From an uncultured Flavobacteriaceae bacterium (GTDB taxonomy: Bacteria > Bacteroidota > Bacteroidia > Flavobacteriales > Flavobacteriaceae): DNA of 64,000 nt. Of this stretch, positions 23,349 through 48,450 are shown one piece after another. Each line of letters opens with the position of its first letter. Within the stretch, counting starts at the first letter, position 1. The translations under genes were made by a program, and so were the position numbers. The stretch covers positions 1-64,000 of the forward strand of contig CALDYU010000010.1 of the NCBI GenBank assembly GCA_937944485.1. The letters run 5' to 3'. The notes beneath the pieces were generated by a model, which saw nothing but the letters and a program-made list of their open reading frames with translations, was not told the DNA's origin and did no database searches.

Positions 23349-24059
23349 ATGGGAAGAGCTTTTGAATTTAGAAAAGCACGAAAAATGAAGCGTTGGTCAG
23401 CGATGTCCAAAGCTTTTACGCGCATTGGAAAAGATATTGTTATTGCGGTAAAAGAAGGTGGCCCTGATCCGGATTCTAATTCAAAATTGCGGGCTGTTAT
23501 ACAGAATGCCAAATCTGTTAACATGCCTAAAGACAATATTGAGCGGGCAATCAAGCGAGCTAGTGATAAAAATCTAGGAGATTTTAAAGAAGTTTTATTT
23601 GAAGGCTATGCCCCCCATGGTATTGCCATACTTATTGAAACAGCTACAGACAATAACACCCGTACGGTAGCTAATGTGCGAAGTTATTTTAATAAATGTA
23701 ATGGTAATTTAGGGACTTCTGGTTCCGTTGAATTCATGTTCGATCACACTTGTAATTTTAGAATTCCTACGGAAGGAATTGACCCAGAAGAACTGGAATT
23801 AGAAATGATCGATTATGGTGCTGAAGAAGTGTTCGTTGACGATGATGGTATTTTAATTTATGCGCCTTTCGAAAGTTTTGGTGCCATTCAAAAAGAATTA
23901 GAATCACGTGATATTGAAATACTTTCTTCTGGCTTTGAACGTATACCTCAAGTGACTAAACAACTCACTGAAGAACAAGTGGCCGATGTTGAAAAACTTT
24001 TAGAAAAGATCGAGGAAGATGATGATGTGCAAAACGTTTATCACACGATGCAGGAATAA
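23349..24059 (+). CDS. yebC: YebC/PmpR (TACO1) family DNA-binding / translation-associated protein
   Basis: The 236-aa protein has the family N-terminus (MGRAFEFRKARKMKRWSAMSK region), KEGGPDPDSNSKLR, NMPKDNIERAIKRA, EGYAPHGIAILIE and a C-terminal acidic domain. Members bind DNA as regulators or, as TACO1/YebC, help ribosomes through proline-rich stretches. The last 41 coding and stop bases belong to a 42-bp sequence that recurs at 39292-39333. The gene is therefore complete here but sits at the left edge of the apparent island. Its likely original terminator is now at 39361. Confidence 0.95.
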   Translation: MGRAFEFRKARKMKRWSAMSKAFTRIGKDIVIAVKEGGPDPDSNSKLRAVIQNAKSVNMPKDNIERAIKRASDKNLGDFKEVLFEGYAPHGIAILIETATDNNTRTVANVRSYFNKCNGNLGTSGSVEFMFDHTCNFRIPTEGIDPEELELEMIDYGAEEVFVDDDGILIYAPFESFGAIQKELESRDIEILSSGFERIPQVTKQLTEEQVADVEKLLEKIEEDDDVQNVYHTMQE

Positions 24060-24060
24060 T
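24019..24060 (+). repeat. Left direct repeat (attL-like), yebC 3' end
   Basis: These 42 bp cover the last codons and stop of yebC and match 39292-39333 at 41 of 42 positions. The single difference is a synonymous CAG/CAA. Flanking bases outside the 42 bp do not match. This is the pattern left by site-specific integration into the 3' end of a gene. Confidence 0.85.
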
Positions 24061-24513
24061 TCCTTAAATTCCCAAAAACAAGTCTAAAGTACTCTATTTT
24101 AATATTCCTTTATAATTGTTTATATCATGGTATGATTACAAACTAATATTGAACTAATCGGATGAATTTCAACTATTATTTATCCTCTTAATTAAAAGTG
24201 AAAGGTACCCAATTGATCAGGCTCTAATTGGAGACCTCGCAAAAAGAGATGCAATACGTGGATTCAAGGATTTCAGTTAAAAAAGAAACAAGGGAACGAC
24301 ATGAAGAAAAAAATGAAAAGGCACCCTTTTTTACCAAAAACTGACAGCCAGCTCGAAATTCCTAACGATTTAAGTTCAGAAGTTCAACTTCAACAATAAA
24401 GAAGGTTCTACAAAACGTCTTCTCTTTCTAAAAAAACAAAAAAAGATTCATTAACCTCTGATAAAATTATAACGCTTTCAGAATTGGAAATCCTATCAAG
24501 ATCAAAGGAATGA

Positions 24514-24639
24514 CTAAAAAAAGGAACTGTGCCAGGAGTTAAAATGATTGGTTCCGCCTATTGTATTTTCCCCAAACTCTTCAAAATAGTCTTCATTTAT
24601 TACTAAGGTTTTTTGTTTCAAATCAAATTCGTTATTCAT
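24514..24639 (-). CDS. Small open frame, possible precursor-like peptide or remnant
   Basis: This is 41 codons from the ATG at 24639 to TAG, downstream of the DsbD gene on the same strand but beyond its terminator hairpin. The product is acidic in its first half (VINEDYFEEFGE) with a Gly-Gly and an aromatic, Ser/His-rich end. I do not recognise it. The codon pattern looks plausible for a protein, but the length gives little statistical support. Confidence 0.25.
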   Translation of the reverse strand: MNNEFDLKQKTLVINEDYFEEFGENTIGGTNHFNSWHSSFF

Positions 24640-24656
24640 AAAAATTAGTATTTATC

Positions 24657-24689
24657 AAAAGGGTCTATGCAACCCACTCAGACCCTTTT
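24657..24689 (-). terminator. Terminator after the DsbD gene
   Basis: The 10-bp stem AAAAGGGTCT / AGACCCTTTT lies 22 bp past the DsbD stop, with a T run on either strand. It could also stop read-through from yebC. Confidence 0.7.
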
Positions 24690-24711
24690 CATCAATCAAA
24701 TAATCAGGTGT

Positions 24712-26721
24712 TCAATGGGTACCGGGGTTCTTAAACTCTTCAATTCCATTTATCAGCCAGTTATAGTACTCATCGACATCTGGAGTATAGGCAACGGGAT
24801 CTATCAGGTTTTCTTCATCATGATCCATTAGTACGTAGAACGGTTGCGAATTTGCTCTGTATTTGATGGTCTGTAATTCACTCCATTTTTGACCAATAAA
24901 CTTCAACTTTTTACCAGGTCTTAATTTGGACTCCTCTATCTCATCTTCATTCAAGGGCCTTTTATCATCAACATAGAGAGATATTAATACCACTTTGTTC
25001 TTCAAAATGTCCAGTATCTTAGGTTCTGGCCATACATTTTGTTCCATCTTTCTACAGTTTACACAGGCCCAACCGGTAAAGTCAATCATAATAGGCTTTT
25101 TCACCTTTTTAGCATAGGCCAACCCCTTATTATAATCATTGAAAACAAGAATATCGTGAGGAGGTAGTAAATGCCCACCATCTGGTAGCTCCCCGTGGTC
25201 AGTGCTCAATAAATTCCCGCCAGTTTTGGAGTAACCGACACCATAAGGCGACTCACTATATTCCAATGGTGGAGGAAAAGCACTTATCAGTTTAAGTGGA
25301 GCGCCCCAAAGCCCAGGAATCATATAAACTGTAAAGGCCAAAGTCAGCAAAGCCAATCCCAATCTACCAACCGAAATATGGGTCAATGGTGAATCGTGGG
25401 GCAATTGAATCTTACCCAAAAGATAAAAAGCAAGTGCCCCGAAGATTGTAATCCAGATTGCAATAAACACCTCCCGCGTCAACAAATGTAATTGAAGCAC
25501 TAGGTCAGCCTGAGATAAGAACTTGAATGCCAATGCAAGCTCTAAAAAACCCAAAACTACCTTGACAGTGTTCAACCAACCACCTGATTTTGGCAAGGAG
25601 TTCAACCACCCTGGGAATGCGGCAAAAAGACCAAATGGTAGGGCTATCGCCGATGAAAATCCCAGCATTCCAATTATTGGAGCAATACCTCCCTTGGAGG
25701 CGGCTTCCACCAATAAGGTTCCTACAATAGGTCCTGTACAAGAGAAGGAAACTATGGCTAGAGCCAGCGCCATAAAAAAGATACCTATTAAACCTCCATA
25801 TTTATAGGATTGGGCATCAATTTTATTAGCCCATGAACTTGGTAAACTTATCTCAAATGCACCCAAGAACGAGATAGCGAAGATTACCAACAATAGAAAG
25901 AAAATGATATTAAACCAAACATTTGTGGCCAGAGCGTTGAGCGAGTCCGCACCAAAAATCGCAGTCACAGCTGTTCCTAGAAGTACATATATAATAATTA
26001 TGGATATCCCATAGAATATTGCGTTGCGGATACCCACCGCACGATTTTGACTCTGTTTGGTGAAGAAGCTTACTGTCAATGGAATCATTGGGAATACGCA
26101 AGGTGTTAATAAGGCCGCAAAACCAGAAATGAAAGCAATGAAAAATATGCCAAACAAACCTTTAGTATCATCGTCATGCGGTACTTCATCAGAGATTTCA
26201 GTTATCGCATTCTGCGAATTCCCATTGCCCAAAATAGTTTCCGTGGATTCACCATTAATTTCAGATTTATCCCTGAGACCAAATCTCAGCTCTTCTTCCT
26301 TTGGAGGAAGACATTTTTGGTCATCGCAAGCCATAAATTCAACGTAACCAAACACCAAATCAACCTCTTCAGAAACAACCACCTTTTGTTCAAAAATCGT
26401 CTTGTTTTCGAAATACTTGATTTGCATTTGAAAAACTTTGTCAAAAATTGTGATCCCTTCCTCCTCTTTAGTGGAATCGACCAATTCTATGATCCCTTCC
26501 TTAACATCAAACCAGAACATGGTTGGAAGTGGGCCTTTCTCTGGAACATTTTGAGAATATAAATGCCAACCTGGCTCAATAAGGGCAGTCGCCTTTAGCA
26601 CATATTCGCCGTTGGAAATCTCCTCTACCGATGTAAACCATTTTACGGGATCATATGTCTGTGATTTACTTTGAAAAAAACCAAGAAACGCAATAAAAAA
26701 AACAAAGAATTTTAGTTTCAT
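24712..26721 (-). CDS. Thiol:disulfide interchange protein, DsbD family
   Basis: This 669-aa inner-membrane protein passes electrons from cytoplasmic thioredoxin to periplasmic partners. It has a signal peptide (1-20). A DsbD-alpha-like N-terminal domain follows (about 21-150), with its Cys pair in CDDQKCLPPKE. The membrane domain of about eight helices (185-480) contains LLTPCVFPMIPLTV and SFSCTGPIVG, the two membrane cysteines. The C-terminal thioredoxin-fold domain has the CxxC motif in GWACVNCRKMEQNVW. All six redox cysteines are present, so it looks intact. Nearby TlpA- and thioredoxin-like proteins are plausible clients. A paralogous lone alpha domain lies at the other end of the island. 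Confidence 0.92.
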   Translation of the reverse strand: MKLKFFVFFIAFLGFFQSKSQTYDPVKWFTSVEEISNGEYVLKATALIEPGWHLYSQNVPEKGPLPTMFWFDVKEGIIELVDSTKEEEGITIFDKVFQMQIKYFENKTIFEQKVVVSEEVDLVFGYVEFMACDDQKCLPPKEEELRFGLRDKSEINGESTETILGNGNSQNAITEISDEVPHDDDTKGLFGIFFIAFISGFAALLTPCVFPMIPLTVSFFTKQSQNRAVGIRNAIFYGISIIIIYVLLGTAVTAIFGADSLNALATNVWFNIIFFLLLVIFAISFLGAFEISLPSSWANKIDAQSYKYGGLIGIFFMALALAIVSFSCTGPIVGTLLVEAASKGGIAPIIGMLGFSSAIALPFGLFAAFPGWLNSLPKSGGWLNTVKVVLGFLELALAFKFLSQADLVLQLHLLTREVFIAIWITIFGALAFYLLGKIQLPHDSPLTHISVGRLGLALLTLAFTVYMIPGLWGAPLKLISAFPPPLEYSESPYGVGYSKTGGNLLSTDHGELPDGGHLLPPHDILVFNDYNKGLAYAKKVKKPIMIDFTGWACVNCRKMEQNVWPEPKILDILKNKVVLISLYVDDKRPLNEDEIEESKLRPGKKLKFIGQKWSELQTIKYRANSQPFYVLMDHDEENLIDPVAYTPDVDEYYNWLINGIEEFKNPGTH

Positions 26722-26761
26722 CTTATTCGAATTATTACGTTAAGAATTATCTGTTTTCACA

Positions 26762-26787
26762 AAAGGGACTGCCAATGGCAGCCCTTT
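26762..26787 (-). terminator. Hairpin between the TlpA pseudogene and DsbD
   Basis: AAAGGG-A-CTGCC pairs with GGCAG-CCCTTT around an AAT loop (11 bp with one bulge), and TTTTG follows on the minus strand. It would end transcripts coming from the susCD/TlpA side before dsbD. Confidence 0.55.
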
Positions 26788-26830
26788 GCAACTAACTCAA
26801 ATAACATAAGTTTTAACAAAACCTATATAA

Positions 26831-27156
26831 CTATTTATATAACGGATCAGTTTCGTTAGACCCTATGTCTAAGAAAGCCAAATTTTTACTTTTTGATTGA
26901 TTCGCAATGGCTACCCGATTTATCTAAGGAGTCTAATTTAATGACTATGAGTTGGTCACCACCACAATTTCAAATCCTTTGGGTCTATATTTGTCATACG
27001 CTTTTATAAATGAGGATAGAACTTACGCCAAGCCATATACCAACGAGCCTAAAAATCTATCAATACTATTTTCTCATTCTTTAGTGACGATAAAGTGAAG
27101 TCTTCACCCTTGTTAGTTTTGAGGGTAAATTCAGGAGCAATTTCATCTATGGCCAT
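26831..27156 (-). pseudogene. Decayed TlpA/thioredoxin-like gene
   Basis: Reading the minus strand from the ATG at 27156 gives MAIDEIAPEFTL, then a strand-helix run ending KIVLIDF. An in-frame stop falls where TlpA proteins have Trp of the WxxWC motif, and the CxxC region is replaced (ARWYMAWRKF). After a frameshift the next part reads YDKYRPKGFEIVVVTNS, matching the TlpA segment after the active site. More stops follow, and a tail ends LYK. The intact TlpA at 35746 has SDFRGKYLLIDFWASWC and KGFEIVGVSDDD at the same places. Both cysteines and the frame are lost, so it cannot be functional. Confidence 0.75.
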
Positions 27157-27423
27157 TTTGTTGAAGCGTTTTCAATTCAAAATATATCCACCAAGTTATA
27201 TTCTACTGTTATCGTTTTATAGAAAATAAATATGTTTTCAGTAAAGGGTTGTTATTGCGTGAATTTGAACTTTTGCGAAATATCAGAACAACCAGTACGT
27301 ACCTACACTCTTCCTACAAAATTTAGAATCGACATGCTTGCAGGTAATGACTGCAATTCACATGCTTATAAAATATAACATTGGGCCATTGAAAAAAGTC
27401 TCTTCTTCTGACAATCTGATAAG

Positions 27424-27473
27424 AAATAAGGATCAACCATTTAAAAAAATCAAATCAAGATCAATCCTTATTT
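27424..27473 (-). terminator. Possible terminator after susD
   Basis: AAATAAGGAT (27424-27433) is the perfect complement of ATCCTTATTT (27464-27473) around a 30-nt A/T-rich loop, 9 bp past the SusD stop. The loop is long for an intrinsic terminator. Confidence 0.35.
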
Positions 27474-27481
27474 CGCTACTT

Positions 27482-28945
27482 CTAATAACCTGGGTTTTGA
27501 ATTTCAACACCATTGGAGGCATTTATAGATTGAACAGGTATAGGTGAAATATATTTATTTATGTCAGTTGCCGTTGGTTTTACTGAACTTATATCAAAAC
27601 CATCAACAAAACTGTAGCGCACTAAGTCGAACCAATCCTCTCCAATCTCACCGCCAAGTTCAATAAGTTTTTCTATTCTAACCGCTTCTAAAAATTGAGT
27701 TAACGAAATCGTGGCCGGATAAGTTTCAAAACCATCTGCACCTGTTGTAATTGCACCTGCTCTAATACGAACTGCGTTTAATGCGTTCAAAGCATCCGTA
27801 GTAACACTTCCATTAGCCCGAGCATGCGCTTCCGCGAAAATCAGATAGAGTTCTGCCATCCTCATATGGTAAATCAATTCATAAGTTTCCGTAAAATCCG
27901 AAACATACTTGCCATTATCAAATAAAAATGGGCCTTGAGGTATGGAAATCGAGGTTACTCTATCACCATCGTGAGAAATATTTTGTCCATTCAAATTCAG
28001 CGCTCCTGTAGTTGCAAAATCTACGTAACTCGGTGGCACGGATGCATAAAATCCCCAGAAGTTACCTATTCCAATAAATTCATTGTTGATATTATCACCT
28101 TGAGTCCCAAAAAGTAGCTCACTGTTACTGAAAAGAGCTTGTGAACTACCATCAAATATCTCGGAATAGGTAGGTGCCAAAGCAAAATCTCCATTCGGGT
28201 TATCCAAGACTTCTCTAGCAAGGGCAGCCGCGTTAGAATAATCACCTTGATAAAATAGTACTTTAGCCTTAAGTGCCCTGGCAAAAGTTTGATTGGCTAC
28301 TATTTTATTAGAAGTTACGGGAGCCATCATAATTGCGTCATCCAAATCCTGTATAATTTGAGCATATGTCTCCTCCACTGAATTACGAGGCTGTGCTTCA
28401 GGAGATCTTACAGGCTCTGTTCTAATGTTAATACCAAACTCAGACTCTAAATCGTAAAACTGTCCCCACTGTCGGAGCAAATAGAAATGGGCTAATGCCC
28501 GTAGCGCTTTTGCCTCTCCTATGATTTCATCTCGCCGACCGGGGTTTTCAAAATCCGCTTCTGATAGATTTGAGATTCCAAAAAGCACCCAATTGGTTCT
28601 ATTAATCAAATCATACATTCTAGTATAAGCACCTAAGTTTATGCGTCCATCAACAATTGGATCATTTGCTACAAAAGAAATGGCCTCGTTATCGTTACCA
28701 GGAGTTATTGCCTGTCCACTGAAAAGCGAAGGTATAATAAAGAGCTCCGGTGTTCCTCTATCAAAGCTTGATTGCCTAAAGGTGGCATAAGCACCTATTA
28801 ATGCCAGTTCTGCTGTATTAGGATCAGATATTCCTTCTTCAGCATCTAATGCAAATAATGGTTCAACATCTTCTATCTTTTCACAACTCACATAAGTGAA
28901 GAAGGTAATTGTGATTAGTCCTAAAATTTTTAAATATGTTTTCAT
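27482..28945 (-). CDS. SusD/RagB-family outer-membrane lipoprotein
   Basis: The 487-aa protein forms the lid and substrate-binding subunit over the SusC transporter. A lipoprotein signal peptide ends at the lipobox TYVSC (Cys21). SusD-like TPR helices run through the protein, with blocks such as EAKALRALAHFYLLRQWG and RMAELYLIFAEAHARANG. The usual C-terminal stretch is ALNAVRIRAGA followed by AVRIEKLIELGGEIGEDWFDLVR. It starts 25 bp after SusC, the standard susC-susD order. The ligand is unknown; no glycoside hydrolase or polysaccharide lyase is nearby, so a glycan substrate is not implied. Confidence 0.93.
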   Translation of the reverse strand: MKTYLKILGLITITFFTYVSCEKIEDVEPLFALDAEEGISDPNTAELALIGAYATFRQSSFDRGTPELFIIPSLFSGQAITPGNDNEAISFVANDPIVDGRINLGAYTRMYDLINRTNWVLFGISNLSEADFENPGRRDEIIGEAKALRALAHFYLLRQWGQFYDLESEFGINIRTEPVRSPEAQPRNSVEETYAQIIQDLDDAIMMAPVTSNKIVANQTFARALKAKVLFYQGDYSNAAALAREVLDNPNGDFALAPTYSEIFDGSSQALFSNSELLFGTQGDNINNEFIGIGNFWGFYASVPPSYVDFATTGALNLNGQNISHDGDRVTSISIPQGPFLFDNGKYVSDFTETYELIYHMRMAELYLIFAEAHARANGSVTTDALNALNAVRIRAGAITTGADGFETYPATISLTQFLEAVRIEKLIELGGEIGEDWFDLVRYSFVDGFDISSVKPTATDINKYISPIPVQSINASNGVEIQNPGY

Positions 28946-28970
28946 TCTCTTCTATTCTTTGAATTGTTAA

Positions 28971-31900
28971 TTAGAAACTTACATTTAATCCGATGGTAAA
29001 TGTTCTTGTCTGTGGATATGCAAGAGAATCTTCATCATTTAGCAAGTCGACACTGCTACCACCTCTTTGGGGGCCAACACTTTCAGGATCAATTCCCGGA
29101 TAATCGGTAATTGTAAAGATGTTATTACCACTTACGCTTAGACGTGCTGCAGAAACACCTAATTTCTTCATGACAGATTCGGGAAAGCTATACCCAATGG
29201 AAGCCGATCTCAATCGAATATAGGAGGCGTCAAATACAGATCTTGAACTTTGGGAGTGTGAAAATGAACCAAATCTTGCATATCTCGCATCTGTATTGTT
29301 TGGTGTCCAAGTGTCGTTTACCAAGTCCGTATAATTTGTAGCAAATCCATCTATTCCAAAAAGGCCATCAATACGACTCCAGTATCGCTCAACTCCTTCA
29401 ACCATCTGCAAGTTGAAAGAAAAATCTAAGTTCTTATAGGTAACGGTGTTGTTCCAACCAGCAAAATAGTCAGGATTAATATCCCCCACACCTATTTGAT
29501 CTTCTGCATTAGTAATTTGACCATCGCCATTGACATCCTTATAGATATAATCACCTGGTTGTCGAAGAGCAAAATGATAAGTTCCATCTGGTGATCCGGC
29601 ATTAAGCGCATCTATTTCCTCCTGAGTTTGTGCAATTCCAATTACATCGAAAACAAAATTAGTACCGATGGGAGAACCCTCTCTGATTCCTCGGCTTCCA
29701 AACGAATTAACCTGCGATCCATTTAAACTATTGACATTATTGTCAACAAAGGTTATATTAAAGGAAGAGTTCCATCTAAAATTGTCAGTGCGTAAAATAT
29801 CTCCGCTCAAAGTGAATTCAAACCCCGAATTGGAAACATCAGCAATATTTGAGTTGAAACGAAGTTCCCCTGTCTGCGATGGAGCTGGTGTCAATAAAAT
29901 AATACCTGAAGTGTTCTTTTCAAAATAAACCGCTTCAGCGTTAACCCTATTATTGAATAATCCGAACTCAAGACCAATATCTAATTGATCCGTTTCTTCC
30001 CAGCGAATATTTTCATTGACTACACCATCAACCACAATACCGTTTTGTCCATTATAAAATGAATCATTATTATCCAAAGTACCATAAAGAGCTCTATATG
30101 TGAAGTCAGGCAAATTATCCGATCCTGTCCGGCCGAGGCTTGCTCTTAATTTTAGTTGACTGATAAACTTACTGTCCTTCAAAAATTTCTCATTATGAAC
30201 GTTCCAAGCAATTGCTCCTGATGGAAAAAAACCGTATCGATTTCCTGGTCCAAATTTTGTTGAACCATCCTGGCGAGCGGTGAAGGTCAATAAATATCTA
30301 TCATCAAACCCGTAGTTGATCCGTCCAAAAATTGAATTCAAAACACTCTGGGTAGCATCACTTCGGAACCTAAAAACGTTAGTGGCATTTCCAGAGTTAA
30401 TTAAATCAGAATTATCAGGGAAACTAGCAAAAGCTTGTTCATCCAAATCCAGTCGGTTCTTGTTATACGAAACACCTACAACCGCATTAATATTATGCTT
30501 ATCACTAAATACTTTGTTATAATTCAAGGTGCTTTCCCATGCTGTGGTATAACCTGAATTGTTTTGTCGAACCAGCTCGGCTCTGTCTGGAATACCCTGA
30601 AAAAAGTTATTTAATCTAGTTGTCGAGCTGAAGGAAGGAGAAAAATTCGACGACCTATCATAAGTTATACCAGCGCTGAATTGCGACCTTAATTTTAACC
30701 CATCAACAATTTCATATTCTCCAAAAATAGATCCTAAAAAATTTTGGGAGACGGCTTTATTCATGTCTTTACCGTAGCCTTCAACGGGATTTAAAACATT
30801 AATCCGACCAAAAAATATATTACTAGAGGTAAATGACCCATCTTCATTGAGTAAACCTAAATCTGGTCTAAAATTTCCCCGCCCCAAGCCACTTATACCA
30901 GAAGTCTTGTTAACGGCATAGTTGTAGAGAATCGAAGAGCCTACTTTAAATTTTTTAGAAGTATTAGTTTCTACATTACCAGAAAAACTATACCTCTGGA
31001 ATTTATTCCCCAAAAGAACTCCTTCCTGATCGTTAACAGTCGCAGAAATTAAATAATTGGTACTTTCCGAACCACCAGTATAACTCAAGTTATAATTACT
31101 CCATAACGCATTGTTATTTGTAAGTAAATCTTGCCAATCCGTATCTGCACTTCTAAAAAAACTATCTGGATCATTGACAATAGCTGACTCATTTGGAAGT
31201 ATTATCGGTATAAGTCCAGCTGGGCCTGCGAAATTATCTATAGCTATCTGTGCTTGCTCAGAAGCGAAAGCCCTGTATTGAGATGCATTTAAAAAATTTA
31301 GTTCATTAATGGGGTTTTGAATTGTTGAGTTGATAGAGAAACTTAATTTTGGTTCTTGAAACCTCCTTCCTTTTTTGGTGGTGACTATTATTACTCCATT
31401 TGCAGCTCTTGAACCGTATATGGCTGCAGCTGATGCATCTTTTAGTACATCAATTCGTTCGACATCATCTGGATTAATTGACAACAATGGGTTTTCTCTA
31501 TTACCCAAAACCCCAAGACCCAAACCATCAAAATTTGGATTTACTACAATAGGTACCCCATCAATAACGTATAGCGGTTGGTTATCACCCCGTATTTGAC
31601 TAAGTCCTCTAATATTGACAGTCGCTCCACTTCCAGGCGCACCTCCGTTTCCAGAAACAAAGACACCAGAAATTTGACCAACCAAAGCCTGATCGATTGT
31701 TTGAGTCCTAATTTGCTTTATCTCTTTTGCTTTTACCGAACCAACTGTACCCGTAAGATCCTTCTTAACAGTACTACCATAACCAACAACAAGTACTTCA
31801 TCCAAAATGTTCGCCTCTTCCAGCAATGTAATGGTATAATATTCTTGCTTACTTGAGATTTGTTCATAGTAAAACCCATACCCTAATGTTGATACGGCCA

Positions 31901-32477
31901 AAAAATGATTCAAAGTTGCAACAATAGTAAATTTACCGTCGAAATCGGCGGATGTACCCCTAACAATGTAGTCTGTAGAGGGGTTGACTCCCGCTATAGG
32001 TTCCGTGCTTGAAATAAAAACTGTTGCCCCCGGAATTGGCACCCCATTCTTGTCTGTTACAATTCCCTGAACAGTAAATGTTTCTTGCAGCGGAACACCC
32101 AAAGTCGGGTGCATCTTTTGCTTTACGATTACGGTATTGCCAGTAAACTCAAAAGTGCAGAATATCGGCGATAGACCTTTTTGCAATAAGGTCCCGGCTT
32201 TTACGATTCCTTCCTTCAATTCCATAAGCGGAGCGTCATTTATCAGCTCAGAGTTATAAACAAATTCATAACCTGTCTGTTGGCTGATTAGTTCAAAAAC
32301 CTGTTCCAAAGAAACAGTTCTATCCTCGTCTATAATGATATTTGCATTCTGGGCAAGCCCAACCTTTGGGCCGAGACCAAATACAGAAGTCATAAATAAG
32401 AAAACGAAAGTTCGCATGATCAATTTTAGTAATCTTTGTTTGCAGAAAACAAAGATTTTTTTGCATTCAATTATCAT
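28971..32477 (-). CDS. SusC/RagA-family TonB-dependent transporter with STN signalling domain
   Basis: The 1168-aa outer-membrane receptor imports bulky nutrients with SusD. The long signal region (MIIECKKIFVFCKQRLLKL then MRTFVFLF) is typical for STN-bearing flavobacterial SusC proteins, so I keep the 32477 start. After it come an STN domain (about 48-105; VSLEQVFELISQQTGYEFVY), a CarboxypepD_reg-like domain (130-220), the plug with LDEVLVVGYGS and YVIDGVPIV, and a 22-strand beta barrel ending FTIGLNVSF. The STN domain is the part that contacts a FecR-type anti-sigma factor, and FecR is encoded directly upstream. Confidence 0.94.
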   Translation of the reverse strand: MIIECKKIFVFCKQRLLKLIMRTFVFLFMTSVFGLGPKVGLAQNANIIIDEDRTVSLEQVFELISQQTGYEFVYNSELINDAPLMELKEGIVKAGTLLQKGLSPIFCTFEFTGNTVIVKQKMHPTLGVPLQETFTVQGIVTDKNGVPIPGATVFISSTEPIAGVNPSTDYIVRGTSADFDGKFTIVATLNHFLAVSTLGYGFYYEQISSKQEYYTITLLEEANILDEVLVVGYGSTVKKDLTGTVGSVKAKEIKQIRTQTIDQALVGQISGVFVSGNGGAPGSGATVNIRGLSQIRGDNQPLYVIDGVPIVVNPNFDGLGLGVLGNRENPLLSINPDDVERIDVLKDASAAAIYGSRAANGVIIVTTKKGRRFQEPKLSFSINSTIQNPINELNFLNASQYRAFASEQAQIAIDNFAGPAGLIPIILPNESAIVNDPDSFFRSADTDWQDLLTNNNALWSNYNLSYTGGSESTNYLISATVNDQEGVLLGNKFQRYSFSGNVETNTSKKFKVGSSILYNYAVNKTSGISGLGRGNFRPDLGLLNEDGSFTSSNIFFGRINVLNPVEGYGKDMNKAVSQNFLGSIFGEYEIVDGLKLRSQFSAGITYDRSSNFSPSFSSTTRLNNFFQGIPDRAELVRQNNSGYTTAWESTLNYNKVFSDKHNINAVVGVSYNKNRLDLDEQAFASFPDNSDLINSGNATNVFRFRSDATQSVLNSIFGRINYGFDDRYLLTFTARQDGSTKFGPGNRYGFFPSGAIAWNVHNEKFLKDSKFISQLKLRASLGRTGSDNLPDFTYRALYGTLDNNDSFYNGQNGIVVDGVVNENIRWEETDQLDIGLEFGLFNNRVNAEAVYFEKNTSGIILLTPAPSQTGELRFNSNIADVSNSGFEFTLSGDILRTDNFRWNSSFNITFVDNNVNSLNGSQVNSFGSRGIREGSPIGTNFVFDVIGIAQTQEEIDALNAGSPDGTYHFALRQPGDYIYKDVNGDGQITNAEDQIGVGDINPDYFAGWNNTVTYKNLDFSFNLQMVEGVERYWSRIDGLFGIDGFATNYTDLVNDTWTPNNTDARYARFGSFSHSQSSRSVFDASYIRLRSASIGYSFPESVMKKLGVSAARLSVSGNNIFTITDYPGIDPESVGPQRGGSSVDLLNDEDSLAYPQTRTFTIGLNVSF

Positions 32478-32574
32478 ATATTTGCTTATGATTGGTTAAA
32501 CATTGGTTTAATTAATTCTAATCTTTACAAAGGGATTTAGCCTGCGCTGTGGAAGGTTAGGGCTTTATCCTTTT

Positions 32575-33741
32575 TTATTTTACAATTATTTTTCCTTTAC
32601 TTATTTCAAATTCTACCATTCTGGTTCTTTCTATTTTGTTTAAAAGATTGGTTATGTCTTCCGTTCTTCTGAGAACTCCAGAAAATCTCAAGTGCTCTTT
32701 ATTAGAATCACGAAATTCAATTTTAACATCATACCATCTGCCCAAAATCTCCATCATATCGTCGAGAGGTTTTTCATTGAACCTGAAATATCCATCCTTC
32801 CAGCCCGTAACGTGCGCCAGATTCACCTTCTTCAATTCTATATTATCCTCCTTGATGTTTACTAGGGATTGTATTCCAGGTATTAAGGTTTCATCAAAAA
32901 CGCCATTGCTCACCAATACTTTTCCTTCGACCAAAGTTGTAGAAATATTTTCACTTCCCTGATAGGCCGATATGTTAAACTCGGTTCCCAAAACTTCTAC
33001 ATTCTGAACTTGCGTACGCACTTTAAATGGGGTATTATTATTCTCAGTATGTGGTGTCACATCAAAATATGCCTCACCATAAACCAATTCAACCTCTCTT
33101 GTGGCATTGGGATTAAAACCTACAGGGAATTTTAGCTTAGATTCAGAATTTAACCATATTCTAGTTCCATCTGAAAGCTGTATGTAAAATTGCCCGCCAC
33201 GAGGTACAGTGAGGTAGTTATAGCTAATTTCAGTCTCATGTGGTGTCTCTGAATTATTGTACAACAAACTTTCACCATCGCTCTCAACACCTCTAGCACT
33301 AAATTGTGAGCCCTTTTCTAGAACAACTTGGTTTCCGTTTTCCAGGGTCAATACGGCCTTATCGGTTCCAGGAACAATAGCCGACTCCGATAAGGTATTA
33401 GACTTGTGGTTATCCCAAGAATTGTGATAAAGGAAGAAAAAAGCAAAGCCAAGGAGCACTAAAACTGCCGCTGCCGAGGCATACTTATAGAAAATTCGTG
33501 TACTTCGGTATCCCGATTTGAAGGACTTACCGTCCATTTGTACTCGAAGTATCAATTTGGTTTTTTCTATTTCAAAGTCCATTAAATTGAAGTCCAAAGC
33601 ATAGTTGAGATGTACATATCTTTTGAACAACTTCTCATTTTCAGGAGATTCCAAATAATCGCAAAGTTTATCCAGTTCTTGCTCTGTGATGGATTTTGAA
33701 ATGAACTTAATTATTAACTTCTCAATATTTTTATCAATCAT
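32575..33741 (-). CDS. FecR-family anti-sigma factor
   Basis: The product is 388 aa from the ATG at 33741. An N-terminal cytoplasmic sigma-binding part (ITEQELDKLCDYLES region) is followed by one membrane helix (YASAAAVLVLLGFAFFFLY). The periplasmic FecR domain (TVPRGGQFYIQLSDGTRIWL, then EVLGTEFNISAY) and a C-terminal DUF4974/STN-like domain (GYFRFNEKPLDDMMEILGRWY) complete it. The frame is open to 33834, but the first 31 residues lack family similarity. It senses SusC occupancy and controls the ECF sigma factor encoded divergently 110 bp away. Confidence 0.9.
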   Translation of the reverse strand: MIDKNIEKLIIKFISKSITEQELDKLCDYLESPENEKLFKRYVHLNYALDFNLMDFEIEKTKLILRVQMDGKSFKSGYRSTRIFYKYASAAAVLVLLGFAFFFLYHNSWDNHKSNTLSESAIVPGTDKAVLTLENGNQVVLEKGSQFSARGVESDGESLLYNNSETPHETEISYNYLTVPRGGQFYIQLSDGTRIWLNSESKLKFPVGFNPNATREVELVYGEAYFDVTPHTENNNTPFKVRTQVQNVEVLGTEFNISAYQGSENISTTLVEGKVLVSNGVFDETLIPGIQSLVNIKEDNIELKKVNLAHVTGWKDGYFRFNEKPLDDMMEILGRWYDVKIEFRDSNKEHLRFSGVLRRTEDITNLLNKIERTRMVEFEISKGKIIVK

Positions 33742-33851
33742 TATATCATCAATATTCTTATTTAAATAACGATCTAGAAAATAGAAACCCCATGTATCAT
33801 TAACTTTTTTTTTTAATATTGTTAATAAATCCAAAGTTAATTTTTGATTAA

Positions 33852-34430
33852 ATGAAAGACTTTAGCGACAATTCATATCTCATTAATAATCTGCGAAAGG
33901 GAAATAAGGATGCCTTTACCTTCTTGGTGGATTTATACCACCATCAACTTTGTGTGTATGCCAATAATTTAGTCAAAAGCAATATGGAAGCAAGTGATAT
34001 TGTACAAAATGTATTCGTATGCACGTGGGAAAAAAGAGAAAAGTTAAATCCCGATCATTCCATGAGAAATTTTCTTTACAAATCGGTATACAATGAGTTC
34101 ATTGATCAGTACAGAAAAAAACAGTCGGTAATGAAGATTGAAAAAAAATACATCGAATATCTCGATGCCTTGGTTGTCGACAAGGATAATGAAACTCGTG
34201 AACAACTAATAGCTTTGGTCAAACAGGGTATATTAAATCTCCCACCAAAATGCAAACAGGTATTCGAACTAAGCAAAACAGAAGGGCTTACCAATATTGA
34301 AATATCCGAACATCTCAACATATCGGTAAAAGCAGTCGAAGCTCAAATAACCAGAGGATTCCGGTTACTTCGCAAGAGTATTGCTAACAGAATAAAATTA
34401 ATATTGTTTTATTTATTTCGAACCGCTTAG
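33852..34430 (+). CDS. ECF-type RNA polymerase sigma factor (sigma-70 family)
   Basis: At 192 aa it has sigma region 2 (DAFTFLVDLYHHQLCVYANN then EASDIVQNVFVCTWEKRE) and region 4 with its helix-turn-helix (LPPKCKQVFELSKTEGLT then IEISEHLNISVKAVEAQI). This is the Bacteroidota ECF class that works with FecR and SusC. It is divergent from the fecR-susC-susD arm and co-oriented with the truncated FecR, TlpA and thioredoxin genes. In most such loci sigma and FecR genes are co-directional, so the layout is unusual. Confidence 0.92.
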   Translation: MKDFSDNSYLINNLRKGNKDAFTFLVDLYHHQLCVYANNLVKSNMEASDIVQNVFVCTWEKREKLNPDHSMRNFLYKSVYNEFIDQYRKKQSVMKIEKKYIEYLDALVVDKDNETREQLIALVKQGILNLPPKCKQVFELSKTEGLTNIEISEHLNISVKAVEAQITRGFRLLRKSIANRIKLILFYLFRTA

Positions 34431-35174
34431 CAATTCGGAATTTATGAAAATGTGCAATGCTTAAGATTAGTAAACCAAATAGGTAAGGTTTGCTCCACAT
34501 AATCTAGACTGAACATCCTGATATAACTGCTAAATCATAGTGTTTCAAATTTTCAAACAACAGAATGCACTTTTGTAGTCTATAATTCTGTATTCTATAA
34601 AATTGTTGCTACTTGCAAAAAATGGATAAAGTACACCGCCTGCAGCGGCTTAAAGTGAACCATCCTATCCGTTCTGGCTCCAACCGTTTTAAAAAGTACA
34701 TCACAGGTAGAGTTATCATAATAGTCCATAGCTTAACCGTTATAAAAAACTCTTGCCACGGTAACTATTTGGCCTCACCTAGTATACCGAACTTCTTCCT
34801 TACTTTGACAGTCAACCGATCTAATGAGTTACATTCTCTTTCCTGACACGATTTTCGAAGCTATAGATACGCTAGAAGAGATATGAACTAAAGAAATATA
34901 TAAAGGTGAAAATCACTGACTATCATCGATTTCAAACTAAATGTACGATACAATCCTTCATGTATACGCATGATACCCCCGAAAAACAGAAACCCGCTAG
35001 TATTGCCCAAATATTATTCAGTAAGTTCTAAAGGTCGGATAGCGCGTTGAAAATCCTTCATCCTTGTCTAAGAACCTAAAAAACAACATACTTCAAAAAA
35101 TACAATCATAAAAAGTAAGATTGAACTAGGGTTATTATAATTGGCTTCGTAATAATAATTAGATATTCTACAAA
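34431..35174. other. 744-bp gap, apparently decayed sequence
   Basis: No convincing gene. On the minus strand a 44-codon frame (34729-34595, MDYYDNSTC start) overlaps another open stretch (up to about 34795) in a different frame. Both look protein-like but match nothing I recognise, and neither continues past scattered stops. This may be a remnant of an insertion sequence or of the missing half of a FecR/SusCD cluster. Confidence 0.4.
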
Positions 35175-35627
35175 ATGAGGGAAAACAAAATTGAAAACTT
35201 AAAGGTTAAGCATATAATTAATTCCATATCTGCCAATGCCCAAGAACTTTCGTCAGAATGGGCAAAAGCTGAAGGTAATCAGAAGAATTTTATAGAATTA
35301 GATAAAGTAAATTATGCTGTAGCTTTCGATATTTCAAAATTTAATTCTGCAAGAACTAAGTTTTATTTTCTAAACCATATTACCGAAGATCAAGAAAAGC
35401 TTAAGAGATATAATCCCATTTCTCACTGGAGGAGATTGGCTGTGGTAGCAATAATTGTTTTATCAATTTTCTTACCTCTTATATTTAAAAAAAGTGACAT
35501 GTTGAGTACTAATTTCAAAGCCAAACAACAGATAATTTTTCCAGACTTAGACAAAGCAATACTTGCTGTACAAAATGGTAAAAACATTGCATTAAAAAAA
35601 GTAGAAAACTTATTAAAATCATCATGA
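35175..35627 (+). pseudogene. Truncated FecR-like anti-sigma gene
   Basis: The 150-aa product has a cytoplasmic N-terminus (about 1-85), a membrane helix (LAVVAIIVLSIFLPLIF) and then FPDLDKAILAVQNGKNIALK, after which it stops. That last segment corresponds to PGTDKAVLTLENGNQVVLEK in the intact FecR at 32575-33741, directly after its membrane helix. The whole periplasmic FecR domain and the C-terminal domain are missing (family length is about 330-400 aa). It could still bind a sigma factor through its N-terminus, but it cannot sense a receptor. Confidence 0.65.
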
Positions 35628-35745
35628 TAGCGATAGAAAAAGTTTTACTTATACAAGTTTTTTCAAAATCTAATAAAGTAAGATTTAATTATCTAATCAG
35701 GTCTTGAATCACTTATGTGCGAGACTTCATACAAATCAATTAAAT

Positions 35746-36954
35746 ATGAAAATGTTAAAATTAATATGTGTACTCATTGCAATCACAAGTATTTACAGTT
35801 GCGAAAAGCAATTAGAGCCAGGCACATACCGTATAAATGGCAGAGTAAATGACCTTAATGAACAAGGAGAAATATATTTGATGAAATTTCCTGTTATTGA
35901 TACAATTAAAGTCACTAACGGAGAATTTCAACTTGAGAAGAAAATATTAGAACCCGTTCAGGTCGTTTATTTAAGCAAAGAGGCCAACGGAAATATGAAT
36001 CCAAAAACAGGAGTACTTCTTTATTTAGAGCCTTCTGTTATGGAACTTAGCTTAGACTATACCAATTTTTCCAATTCCAGATTAACAGGGTCAAGGACCC
36101 AAGAAAATCAGTACAAACTAGATGAAATCAAGGACAAAATTGCTGAAGATTTTATAACGGAAAGAGAGAGGTTTTTTGCTGTTGGTAAAGAATATGACAG
36201 CGTTGTTAAAGCTGGCGACAGTAAAGATAAGTTAGAAAAAATTAAGTATAAATATAATGATGCTCGTGAAGGATTAGCGCCAATGTGGCAAAAGCAAAAG
36301 GCAGCTACACTTGATTTCATTAAGAAAAACCCAAAAACATATCTTGGCGTGGAACTTTTAGGCTCTCTTCTAAGTGACATGACCTATGATGAAGCAAAGA
36401 CTATTGTTAGTCAATTTAATCCTGAGTATTTAAAAACTGAGTCTGGTGCTAGATTGCTTAAAGAAATGGAAAATATGAAAAAAGGAATACCAGGTGCCAT
36501 TGCGGGTAATTTTGATACTATCGACATCAATGGAAAACCCATAAAACTATCTGATTTCAGAGGAAAGTATTTACTTATAGATTTTTGGGCTAGTTGGTGT
36601 GTTCCGTGTAGAAAAGGCAACCCGCATCTTATTGAGCTTTATAAAAAATACAACTCAAAAGGGTTTGAAATAGTCGGTGTTTCAGATGATGACCGCGATC
36701 ACGATGCTTGGCGAAAAGCCGTAGAAAAAGACCAGATAGGAATTTGGCATCATGTATTGAGAGGACTTAAAATTAAAGATGGAAGAATTGATTTCAACGA
36801 CAAGTCTACTGATATCAGTGATGGTTACAACATAGAATCTTTACCAACCAAAATACTCATGAATCCTGATGGAGTTATTATTGGTAGATACGGCTCAGGA
36901 AGAGGAACCGATACTGATTTAGACATGGATTTAGCTAATTTATTTGAAAAATAG
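35746..36954 (+). CDS. TlpA-family thiol-disulfide oxidoreductase lipoprotein (DUF4369 + thioredoxin)
   Basis: The product is 402 aa from the ATG at 35746, chosen because the lipoprotein signal starts there (MKMLKLICVLIAITSIYSC). A DUF4369 domain follows (about 25-125; YRINGRVNDLNEQGEIYLMK), then a charged helical linker. The C-terminal TlpA/AhpC-like thioredoxin domain (265-400) has the active site LIDFWASWCVPCRKGNPHL and the cis-Pro loop IESLPTKILMNPDG. It is probably anchored in the periplasm or on the outer membrane and reduced by a DsbD-type protein. It precedes the thioredoxin-like gene by 11 bp, so the two are one transcript. Confidence 0.9.
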   Translation: MKMLKLICVLIAITSIYSCEKQLEPGTYRINGRVNDLNEQGEIYLMKFPVIDTIKVTNGEFQLEKKILEPVQVVYLSKEANGNMNPKTGVLLYLEPSVMELSLDYTNFSNSRLTGSRTQENQYKLDEIKDKIAEDFITERERFFAVGKEYDSVVKAGDSKDKLEKIKYKYNDAREGLAPMWQKQKAATLDFIKKNPKTYLGVELLGSLLSDMTYDEAKTIVSQFNPEYLKTESGARLLKEMENMKKGIPGAIAGNFDTIDINGKPIKLSDFRGKYLLIDFWASWCVPCRKGNPHLIELYKKYNSKGFEIVGVSDDDRDHDAWRKAVEKDQIGIWHHVLRGLKIKDGRIDFNDKSTDISDGYNIESLPTKILMNPDGVIIGRYGSGRGTDTDLDMDLANLFEK

Positions 36955-36965
36955 AGTTTACCATT

Positions 36966-38273
36966 ATGAAAAAGATAAAAAACACATTTCTAGTTTTTGC
37001 AGTTTGCTTTTTGAATACGTTCTTAACCACTAATGCCCAAGGAATTGATTTTGAAAAAGGTCGATTAGACAGTGTTCTGAATGTAGCTAGGGCGCAAGAT
37101 AAGTTGGTTTTTGTAGATATTTATACAAAATGGTGCATTCCTTGTAAACAAATGGAGAAGAATGTTTTCTCACTTAAAGAAGTAGGTGACTTTTACAATA
37201 AAAACTTTATTAATTATAAAATTGACGCAGAAGATACAACGTACAATGGACCTAATGTTGCCGAAAGGTACAAAGTTGGAGCGTTTCCAACATATTTATA
37301 TTTAAACTTTAAAGGTGAGCTGGTTTCAAAGTTTGTCGGTTTCATGATTGAAGATGTGTTTATAAAAGCGGGAAAACAAGCTATGGGAACTGATATGACT
37401 TCAACGTTCACGTCTGTATTAGAAAAATACGAAAAAGGTGATACTTCTTTACCTACGCTGAGGTCAGTTATTCTCTTGGGAAGTGAAGCAATGGGATTAA
37501 TAGAAGATAAAGAAAAGAGACAACAAGCCGATAAGCTTCAAAATAAAGCCATATCACTTTTTATGAATCGTTCACCAAGTTCATTTGTCAATACCAAAGA
37601 TATTGAAGTACTTAAGCAAGAATCTGTTTTTTGGTCTCAAGAGCTTTATAGGGGGCATGCTTTAACAGAGTATATTATTGAACACTATAACGATTTTAAA
37701 GATGTAGCTTCTAATGAAGAAGATTTAGGAAAATTCTTAATGAACGCTAACTATATGGGAATTCGAAAGGCAGCCAGTCTTGGCAATGAAAGCCTTTATC
37801 AAAGTTATTTAGATGATATTAATGGTATACTTAAAAGAGCCTATTCGTTCAACGACGAAGAAGAATTACCAGCAATTGCATTTCTAACCGCTTTTGGCAA
37901 ATCAGAATATGCAATTAGTCAAGGAGATTATGATGGTTATTTGATGGAATACGAAAAAATACTAAAGCTTAAAAAAAACGAACTTAGTGCTATAGACTAC
38001 TTAATGCCTGCAAGAGTAATGCTGAATAAGGATAGGGGCACCCCGTCTATTGAGGAATTGAAAAAATGCATAAAATATAACGAAATAGCCTATAAAGATT
38101 ATAAGAATGCCTATGTGGTTACTGATTTTGGGATGCTTATGGCAAAACTTGGAAACAAAGAAAAGGCAAGAGAATATTACACAGAAGCATTAGAAATGTT
38201 TAATGAAATGGGTAAAAGAGGAGAATTTATGATTGAACGGTTTAAAAAGGAGATGATAGAACTTGGTTTGTAA
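36966..38273 (+). CDS. Periplasmic thioredoxin-family protein with helical C-terminal extension
   Basis: The 435-aa protein has a signal peptide (MKKIKNTFLVFAVCFLNTF region). An N-terminal thioredoxin domain (about 30-150) carries the active site DIYTKWCIPCKQMEKNVF and the cis-Pro loop KVGAFPTYLYLN. Residues 150-435 are helical and end in TPR-like units (YVVTDFGMLMAKLGNKEKAR region). Similar two-part proteins are common in Bacteroidota redox loci. The partner is unknown. It is translated just after the TlpA lipoprotein. Confidence 0.85.
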   Translation: MKKIKNTFLVFAVCFLNTFLTTNAQGIDFEKGRLDSVLNVARAQDKLVFVDIYTKWCIPCKQMEKNVFSLKEVGDFYNKNFINYKIDAEDTTYNGPNVAERYKVGAFPTYLYLNFKGELVSKFVGFMIEDVFIKAGKQAMGTDMTSTFTSVLEKYEKGDTSLPTLRSVILLGSEAMGLIEDKEKRQQADKLQNKAISLFMNRSPSSFVNTKDIEVLKQESVFWSQELYRGHALTEYIIEHYNDFKDVASNEEDLGKFLMNANYMGIRKAASLGNESLYQSYLDDINGILKRAYSFNDEEELPAIAFLTAFGKSEYAISQGDYDGYLMEYEKILKLKKNELSAIDYLMPARVMLNKDRGTPSIEELKKCIKYNEIAYKDYKNAYVVTDFGMLMAKLGNKEKAREYYTEALEMFNEMGKRGEFMIERFKKEMIELGL

Positions 38274-38455
38274 AAATGTAAGAATTGCTTCTATTCTTTT
38301 CAAAAATCACTATTGCTCTTTACTTAATAGTTATACGCTTTTAAACGAATCATTGCCCTATGGTCGTCTTAAGTTAGTTTATTATAAATTTTACCTTAAG
38401 TATTTTGGGCCGAAACTTTAAAAGAATTCAGCTATTTAAAATTAAAAGATTTTTT

Positions 38456-38899
38456 ATGAAAAAATTAATACCAATTTTAGTGTTAACTATAAGTTTTAGT
38501 GCTTTTTCGCAAATATATGACCCCGTAAAGTGGGACACTTCAATAAAGAAAATTTCATCCAAAGAAGTTGAATTGATAGTTACAGCTACTATTGAAGATG
38601 ACTGGCACCTGTATTCGCAATTTGTGCCCGAAGATGGCCCAATACCGACTATATTTACTTTTGAAAATAATCCAAATTATTTAAAAAAAGGTAATACTAG
38701 AGAAGAAGAGGGAATTACTATCCATGATAAAATATTCAATATGAAAATTAAATATTTTATAGAAAAAGCTACTTTTAAACAACGGATTAAATTAAAAAGT
38801 GAAAATGCAACTAGTATAAAGGCAGCTGTTGAATTTATGCTGTGTAATGACTCTCAGTGCTTACCACCAAAAGAAGTAGATTTATTATTTGATATTTAA
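38456..38899 (+). CDS. Stand-alone DsbD N-terminal (alpha) domain protein
   Basis: The 147-aa product has a signal peptide (MKKLIPILVLTISFSAFSQ) and then a single DsbD-alpha-like domain. It is clearly paralogous to residues 20-150 of the full DsbD at 24712-26721. Both share YDPVKW, WHLYSQ, VPE.GP, EEEGITI.DK and the Cys pair in CNDSQCLPPKE. No membrane or thioredoxin domain follows. It may be a periplasmic redox shuttle, or the surviving first part of a second dsbD. I chose the ATG at 38456, because the upstream open frame to 38405 precedes the signal peptide. Confidence 0.8.
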   Translation: MKKLIPILVLTISFSAFSQIYDPVKWDTSIKKISSKEVELIVTATIEDDWHLYSQFVPEDGPIPTIFTFENNPNYLKKGNTREEEGITIHDKIFNMKIKYFIEKATFKQRIKLKSENATSIKAAVEFMLCNDSQCLPPKEVDLLFDI

Positions 38900-39291
38900 T
38901 AATAAATTAAATATGATGAAATCATTTACCTGTTACTTACTATTTGATTAGTATTATAATATGGAGTGATAAACAAGGTTCCCTAGGATTAGAATCTATG
39001 AAAATTAGAGTTTTATGTTCAGATTTGAGTGAAATAAAAAAGTAAATCCGCTAGAACACATAATATCAGAATTCTCTCTGTACAGGAATAAGAAAAGGCA
39101 CATAGAATAAAGGGGCATGCCATTTTGGGACATCAATTTATTTAACTTAACCGCTGTGCGACGATATCGATGAGGCCTTCTATCACGATGTTCTTTGTGT
39201 CGTATAGAATTTCCGCTAAATTCGAACAAATAACAAACTAATTTGTTTTTTGAATTTATAAATAGATATAAATCAAATTGTTAAAGTAATT
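38900..39291. other. Right end of the island, decayed coding sequence
   Basis: On the minus strand around 39070-39215, fragments in different frames look protein-like: YDTKNIVIEGLIDIVAQRL in one, then DVPKWHAPLFYVPFLIPVQR in another. A 74-codon frame (39229-39005) overlaps them but reads as low-quality protein. This looks like a frameshifted remnant that I cannot name. Confidence 0.4.
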
Positions 39292-39333
39292 ATGATGATG
39301 TGCAAAACGTTTATCACACGATGCAAGAATAAT
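39292..39333 (+). repeat. Right direct repeat (attR-like), second copy of the yebC 3' end
   Basis: It is 41/42 identical to 24019-24060, including the stop codon of yebC, but has no yebC body upstream. A strong terminator hairpin follows 27 bp later, as would be expected after the original yebC. Confidence 0.85.
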
Positions 39334-39360
39334 AATTTTTAATTTAGATATATTAAAAAA

Positions 39361-39388
39361 AATAGCCTCTTCATTTTAAGAGGCTATT
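39361..39388. terminator. Bidirectional terminator (probably the ancestral yebC terminator)
   Basis: AATAGCCTCTT (39361-39371) pairs perfectly with AAGAGGCTATT (39378-39388). A and T runs flank the stem on both sides. It now serves the minus-strand T9SS gene at 39409. Confidence 0.85.
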
Positions 39389-39408
39389 TTTATTTATTTA
39401 TTGCCGCG

Positions 39409-44328: not shown

Positions 44329-44462
44329 TATTAAAAATATTAACGCCTTCAAATATAATAGGTCAGAATTTCCTTATTTTTAATTATCGTTGAAGCGTCC
44401 ATATATTCCTTCAAATAACATCAAACGGTGATACATTAATCGAAGGTTTAATTCTAAAACAA

Positions 44463-44495
44463 AAAACGGCGATCTGCTTTGCAGACCGCCGTTTT
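44463..44495 (-). terminator. Terminator after the second T9SS gene
   Basis: A 15-bp stem with one mismatch (AAAACGGCG.TCTGC / GCAGA.CGCCGTTTT, TTT loop) is followed by a T run on the minus strand, 18 bp past the stop at 44513. Confidence 0.85.
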
Positions 44496-44512
44496 CAATA
44501 CTCAAAGAACTA

Positions 44513-48250: not shown

Positions 48251-48450
48251 TTGATGGTTGTTATTTGTTTGTAAGATTTTTCTGATTTTTTAACAACGTC
48301 TTCAAAATGAAAAAAGTATGACGTAGTATCGATAAAATGTATTATTTCATCGATGAATAACCAAAATTGACTATGTAATAGTCATATCGAGATAGTTCTA
48401 GTTCTTTTGTAAATAGTTCGTAACTGCTACGACTTAAATAAAAAACAATC

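Follow-up and report, generated by a model that had tools for sequence, protein, structure and literature searches.

A probable decayed integrative element at the 3' end of yebC and a family of related elements at the same gene in Flavobacteriaceae

A repeated yebC end and the genes between its copies

The whole 64,000-nt stretch of Flavobacteriaceae DNA analysed here, which we call the window, contains yebC, a housekeeping gene for a translation factor, at 23349-24059 on the + strand (a 236-aa open frame with 97% identity to the best same-genus yebC). The end of this gene occurs twice. A 42-nt repeat has its left copy (attL side) at 24019-24060 (+) and its right copy (attR side) at 39292-39333 (+), and the interior between the two copies is the island considered below. 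In alignment the copies agree at 41 of 42 positions, and the sole difference, G at 24053 against A at 39326, turns CAG into CAA, glutamine in both. Identity breaks off sharply at both sides of each copy, so that both features of the repeat claimed in the original prediction, the single synonymous difference and the abrupt borders, are borne out. Nor is the 42-mer dispersed through the genome, an outcome that would have told against that prediction: a 181-bp query spanning the yebC end found two places only, both of them these copies, in the window's own assembly (3.41 Mb in 35 contigs, 93% complete; 7% of the genome may be absent). Behind the right copy, a hairpin and T-run at 39348-39401 (+; an inverted repeat with a fold of -18.4 kcal/mol) is probably yebC's own terminator, and hairpins similar to it by eye stand directly behind yebC in several relatives.

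Nine larger genes lie between the copies. On the - strand are a DsbD-like thiol:disulfide interchange protein (24712-26721; PF02683, PF13899, PF11412), SusD (27482-28945; PF07980, PF14322), the TonB-dependent receptor SusC (28971-32477; PF07715, PF13715) and a FecR anti-sigma factor (32575-33834; PF04773, PF16344). On the + strand are an extracytoplasmic function (ECF) sigma factor (33852-34430; PF04542, PF08281), a 150-aa protein with no Pfam match (35175-35627), a TlpA-like protein with DUF4369 and thioredoxin-like domains (35704-36954; PF14289, PF13905), a 435-aa thioredoxin-like protein (36966-38273; PF13899) and a lone DsbD N-terminal domain (38405-38899; PF11412). All nine are accessory, as had been proposed for the genes between the repeats, and a Pfam scan of their proteins detected no recombinase, transposase or conjugation domain among them. 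From these matches the cargo is most likely an ECF/FecR-controlled TonB-dependent uptake system with thiol-redox partners. The DsbD N-terminal domain is present twice, at the two outer genes, and the two versions are 50% identical.

Empty sites in relatives and a broken integrase in the island

We fetched the DNA behind yebC for 19 relatives, 3.3-20 kb each. Their own yebC end is not repeated there in any of the 19 (the best score is 27/42; the window scores 39/42 by this test, which uses a frame offset by a few bases), and no island protein is found behind yebC in any of them. Outside the element, to the right of its right copy, the window continues with genes at 39409-44352 (-), 44513-48250 (-) and 48505-48948 (+), a flank spanning 39409-48948. 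Homologues of all three follow yebC in the same order in two relatives (G005 and G004), while a third (G013) has the first and third there and a fourth (G007) the second and third, some of these matches covering only part of the protein. Same-genus genomes thus have yebC followed by homologues of the right-flank genes, the empty site to which the original prediction had looked for support, and the arrangement that would have spoken against it, the same genes behind yebC in close relatives without repeats, occurs in 0 of 19. Because the sites are empty, and the DNA behind yebC in relatives encodes right-flank homologues but no island proteins, the island was inserted in this lineage. An island common to the relatives is ruled out on the same 19 genomes and on the 435-aa protein, which is in none of the 13 other same-genus genomes searched. 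Elsewhere in the window, tRNA-Pro and tRNA-Ser genes lie at 66-312, ~23 kb upstream of yebC.

In two genomes of the family, G250 and G322, the yebC stop is followed after about 120-141 bp by the start of a gene for a 396-aa tyrosine recombinase, and comparison of this protein with the island exposed the remnant of a similar gene at 24162-24507 (+). The remnant comprises an N-terminal part with two in-frame stops (24162-24338; 59% over 59 aa, E 1.2e-14), followed by a deletion, frame-shifted pieces to 24445 (E about 1e-3) and a last, weak piece from 24424 to 24507 (E 0.05-0.12). Intact integrases of this type have SAM-like, catalytic and arm DNA-binding domains. The earlier statement that no integrase is recognisable inside the island therefore does not hold, this degraded gene being present. 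The accompanying suggestion that the insertion agent is missing or acts in trans stands in one respect, as no intact member of the yebC integrase clade was found in the window's assembly, and falls in the other, as the broken remnant adjoins yebC. A search of the interior for recombinases was divided in the same way: Pfam recognised none in the nine proteins, and comparison with the relatives' integrase yielded the remnant. We infer that the broken yebC-type integrase was the agent of the window insertion.

A family of elements at yebC

Across 397 Flavobacteriaceae genomes, the window's own included, a coding pattern for the yebC tail matched 256 and occurred twice in four (the window's, G247, G250 and G322), and an integrase search at E 1e-80 or better found 11 genomes. 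A scan of named genomes gave 22 loci, 17 at 75-96% identity and 5 at 25-29%. Once six elements seen in both integrase searches, as judged by position, are allowed for, there are 22 distinct elements with at least 45% identity to the G250 integrase, and all 22 of these integrases lie directly behind yebC in the same direction; that of G026 is broken into three frames. Insertion in the gene's 3' end, with the gene restored by the element's own copy, had been proposed for the island, and the same is seen in these 22 related elements. Hosts include Maribacter, Pseudozobellia, Muricauda/Allomuricauda/Flagellimonas, Pricia, Euzebyella, Gelidibacter, Croceivirga and Sediminicola, and identical yebC integrases are found in different genera. 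One such case joins Maribacter polysiphoniae (L081) and a Muricauda metagenome-assembled genome (MAG; L082), where identical integrases are followed by the same large genes, likely a recent transfer between genera.

Association with yebC is confined to the close relatives in the material searched. Thirteen distant homologues (L097-L101, L122-L129) have no yebC in the adjoining DNA examined, and the 8 matches (30-33%) from a search of 375 phylum genomes likewise lack it in the 2.9-4.2 kb examined. Viral contigs yielded no relative of the integrase, and plasmid and phage collections gave only matches below 60% identity (25-30% in the best ten of each). A tree of 39 integrases separates the 21 yebC integrases in it from all others by a branch with support 100/99.

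The same tree bears on whether the element was inserted in trans by a different integrase of the host. The window's assembly does encode six other tyrosine recombinases; their longer matches to the yebC integrases show 21-27% identity (for two of them, one query or more gave nothing but short matches, 32-47% over 49-55 aa), and the five that were placed in the tree all fall outside the yebC clade. The broken gene adjoining yebC is of the yebC type by sequence and by place. On identity, tree and remnant together, and for an assembly from which 7% of the genome may be absent, we reject insertion by a host integrase in trans as very improbable.

A second yebC tail was found by pattern searches for 20 of the 22 elements. 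With the window, 21 left/right pairs of tails could be compared, 12 on one contig and 9 across contigs with the pairing inferred; G170 and G026 were left out because only one copy was found, as was G247, whose repeat includes the terminator and has no integrase. Agreement between left and right tails is highest in the 8 bases CARAAYGT, a trace to be expected from strand exchange in a shared overlap. Insertion by a tyrosine recombinase in a gene's 3' end calls for an identical overlap in both att copies, and all 8 bases are identical in 17 of the 21 pairs, the core having been taken from these same data. Wobble cells agree in 38/42 cases inside the core and 80/147 outside it (Fisher p 9e-6), or in 26/30 and 56/105 when six near-copies are dropped (p 0.001); because the core was chosen from the data that it is tested on, these p-values are flattering. 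CARAAYGT is probably the crossover overlap. In the window it reads CAAAACGT at 24030-24037 (+) on the left, and by sequence position the right core, also CAAAACGT, lies at 39303-39310 (+). Integration alters the YebC tail in some hosts, from NVYHTMEESA to NVFHNLDA in G385 and from NVFHSMKE to NVYHTMQE in Allomuricauda profundi. The gene that follows the right copy in G250 was seen in that position only in G250, the window and G441 (the stretches tested being ~3 kb or less for most).

The island's two ends also carry a motif of the family. Copies of GAACWAAT, 11 bp apart, closely precede the integrase and also precede the right core, by ~68-80 bp. With one mismatch allowed, at least one copy is present at 18 of 18 left ends (17 named relatives and the window) and a pair at 20 of 21 right ends (all but that of the distant G385); there are 24 exact copies on the left and 38 on the right, against means of 0.4 and 0.3 in shuffled sequence. 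The window's left pair (AAACTAAT and GAACTAAT, 11 bp apart) is at 24140-24158 (+), the same place as in the 17 named relatives, and its right pair (GAACAAAT and AAACTAAT, 11 bp apart) at 39224-39242 (+). These are exactly the 2 matches to the pair pattern in the 64-kb window, against 0.01 expected for a pattern that was loosened after the window's copies were known. The pairs are putative arm-type sites, which the N-terminal arm-binding domain of the integrase would bind. In addition, over 79 bp the island's right end shares 81% identity with the end of the element in Maribacter sp. ACAM166 (G434; E 1e-15). From the end motifs and this similarity, both ends of the island are ends of the yebC family. 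At five loci (L085-L089), the element end just behind the yebC stop has a hairpin followed by T's that, judged by eye, resembles a terminator and could replace that of yebC.

A plain segmental duplication of the yebC end, with no site-specific recombination, might also place a second tail downstream, and one genome provides a precedent: in G247 (L059, C33:133500-142500) the yebC end is duplicated 2.9 kb apart, terminator included, with an 810-aa protein between the copies and no integrase. That is a different event from the one in the window, whose repeat excludes the terminator and encloses both an integrase remnant and the family's two end motifs. We reject plain duplication for the island and give it next to no probability.

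The bodies of the yebC elements range from 10 to 171 kb. In the 17 named loci, where at most 10 kb behind the integrase was examined and domains were scanned in one element (L085), a helix-turn-helix (HTH) protein of an 81-aa type follows the integrase in 13; it is excisionase-like by its place, and in the one protein scanned the HTH_17 match is below cut-off. A protein of a relaxase cluster occurs in 11 of the 17, and one of a NikA/MobC-like cluster also in 11. The ATPase TraG lies between the ends in seven of 12 single-contig elements (G250, G207, G115, G293, G438, G434 and G431), which span 71-171 kb, and not in the other five (G381, G345, G322, G385 and the window). By their genes, these seven hold an integrase and a conjugation ATPase between att sites, the combination sought in an integrative and conjugative element (ICE). 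In G250, TraG is surrounded by TraQ-, TraO-, TraN-, TraM-, TraK- and TraJ-like proteins, a coupling protein and a ParA-like ATPase; TraG alone passes the NCBIfam cut-off, and matches to TraQ, TraO, TraM, DUF4138, TrbL and the coupling protein pass in Pfam. Similar modules are present in G207 and G293. The family thus probably includes ICEs of 71-171 kb, judging from gene content. Small islands belong to it too, such as one of 10 kb in G322, and elements such as those of G250 and G322 supply what had been named as further support for the prediction, other cargo between the same repeats together with an integrase.

Two further observations concern these genomes. Within the 10-kb yebC element of G322 (Flavobacteriaceae bacterium R38; L060:6187-12198), a SIS/HAD-type protein, a PRTase-CE, an ORC-CDC6-like protein and a CARF6 protein stand in a row, perhaps a defence cluster. 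A further TraG lies ~29-46 kb upstream of yebC, outside the element, in G293 (C20:168996), G438 (C2:203306), G431 (C3:374357) and G381 (C12:145242), and there may be a second ICE site near yebC in these four.

Classification and implications of the island

We conclude that the island is very probably a decayed integrative element belonging to a family with a tyrosine recombinase that targets the 3' end of yebC, and that it is best filed as a cis-mobilizable element (CIME). Direct observation covers the repeat itself, the relatives' empty sites, the integrase remnant, end motifs that match those of the family, and related elements built in the same way. The incoming element would have brought its own copy of the yebC tail, and its integrase would have joined the two cores, CARAAYGT in that copy and its counterpart in the host gene, by recombination. 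The element's tail would then have completed yebC on the left, supplying its final codons, and the host's own tail would have been pushed right to 39292-39333, where it is now followed by the genes that stand behind yebC in relatives. Later, the integrase would have broken and any transfer genes been lost, and the ECF/FecR-controlled SusC/SusD uptake cargo with its thiol-redox partners would have stayed.

In two papers, a CIME is described as having decayed from an ICE or an integrative and mobilizable element (IME), keeping its att sites and losing its integration and transfer functions (PMC5704250, PMC7563491). Like a CIME, the window island retains attL and attR (42-bp repeats, cores and end motifs at both ends) and has lost both functions: its integrase gene is interrupted by stops and frame changes with no recombinase among the nine proteins, and it keeps no transfer gene. 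It differs in having no tandem functional element in the window, in its target, yebC, and in that its cis-mobilization is putative. The island is not an ICE, which would have a working integrase, a relaxase and a conjugation apparatus; the TraG of the window's assembly is on another contig (C32). Probable ICEs do occur among the relatives that share its ends and its type of integrase.

Elements that integrate at the 3' end of a conserved gene are already well known, and so are CIMEs (PMC5704250, PMC7563491). PMC5704250 lists tyrosine-recombinase IMEs in the 3' ends of guaA, rplL, rpmE, rpmG, rpsI and trmE. The yebC elements resemble these in having a tyrosine integrase and inserting in the 3' end of a conserved protein gene, and differ in residing in Flavobacteriaceae, in including probable ICEs and in their target, which that paper does not mention. 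They also resemble the TraG-type (TIGR03783) conjugative transposons of Bacteroidetes, with TraG between the ends of seven relatives and the Tra module of G250. In contrast to those transposons, the TraJ, TraK, TraM and TraN matches of G250 are below NCBIfam cut-offs (TraO and TraQ pass those of Pfam), the window island has no such Tra proteins, and the target is yebC. As an integration target, yebC was not found in the literature searched, which included the accessible parts of PMC9453066, PMC7232370, PMC5704250 and PMC7563491, most subscription papers being outside reach; a family targeting it seems undescribed.

Several points weigh against the island being a decayed yebC element. Its GC content does not mark it (35.6%, against 36.0 and 36.4%). 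Its two tails are alike at 36 of 38 positions, against 24-34 in the other 20 pairs, a likeness that is unexpected because the integrase has decayed; it could be due to a same-genus donor or to gene conversion. The core and the pair pattern were each tested on the data from which they had been derived. The window has no match at E 0.1 to the HTH, relaxase, MobC-like, 161-aa or 236/262-aa backbone proteins of three relatives; as no trace of a relaxase, of MobC or of an excisionase-like protein is left, the integrase and the ends would be the basis for deriving the island from an ICE or IME. Finally, the cargo has no close relative in the sampled genomes: the 435-aa thioredoxin-like protein, the only cargo protein searched across family and phylum, was found in its own genome only, both among the 397 family genomes (E 1e-50) and among 306 phylum genomes (E 1e-40), its own included in each.

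Because the cargo lacks close relatives in these samples, its separate arrival is possible. The remnant and end motifs would then be the scar of an older yebC element, and the cargo would have entered on its own, for example by homologous recombination or with a transposon. The cargo is indeed unlike that of the relatives examined, and a deletion lies behind the N-terminal part of the integrase, as such a history might leave. Yet no transposase or second recombinase is present among the nine proteins scanned, and a yebC element in a Pricia MAG (L083) also has SusC- and FecR-like genes, though only 28-30% identical to the island's. We regard separate entry of the cargo as quite unlikely, and favour a decayed yebC element that carried it.

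Both island ends have kept the look of substrates, so that the island might in principle be moved by an intact yebC-type element that enters the cell. A broader picture can be offered tentatively, as one that probably does not hold in full: an undescribed family of Flavobacteriaceae ICEs and small elements would have the yebC tail as its only door, each integration would swap the last codons of YebC for those of the element and so edit a host translation factor, possibly affecting the host, and the window island would still be a substrate for an arriving intact member.

Starting from one repeat, the analysis maps a family that has a single integrase clade, a single target gene, a probable crossover core, characteristic end motifs and bodies of 10-171 kb, whose cargo consists of conjugation genes, uptake systems or CARF-type genes. 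It raises the question of whether exchange of the YebC tail matters to the host. The yebC tail is a place to look for horizontally moved genes in Flavobacteriaceae, and the window island would represent an end stage, an uptake cluster left behind after its engine died.

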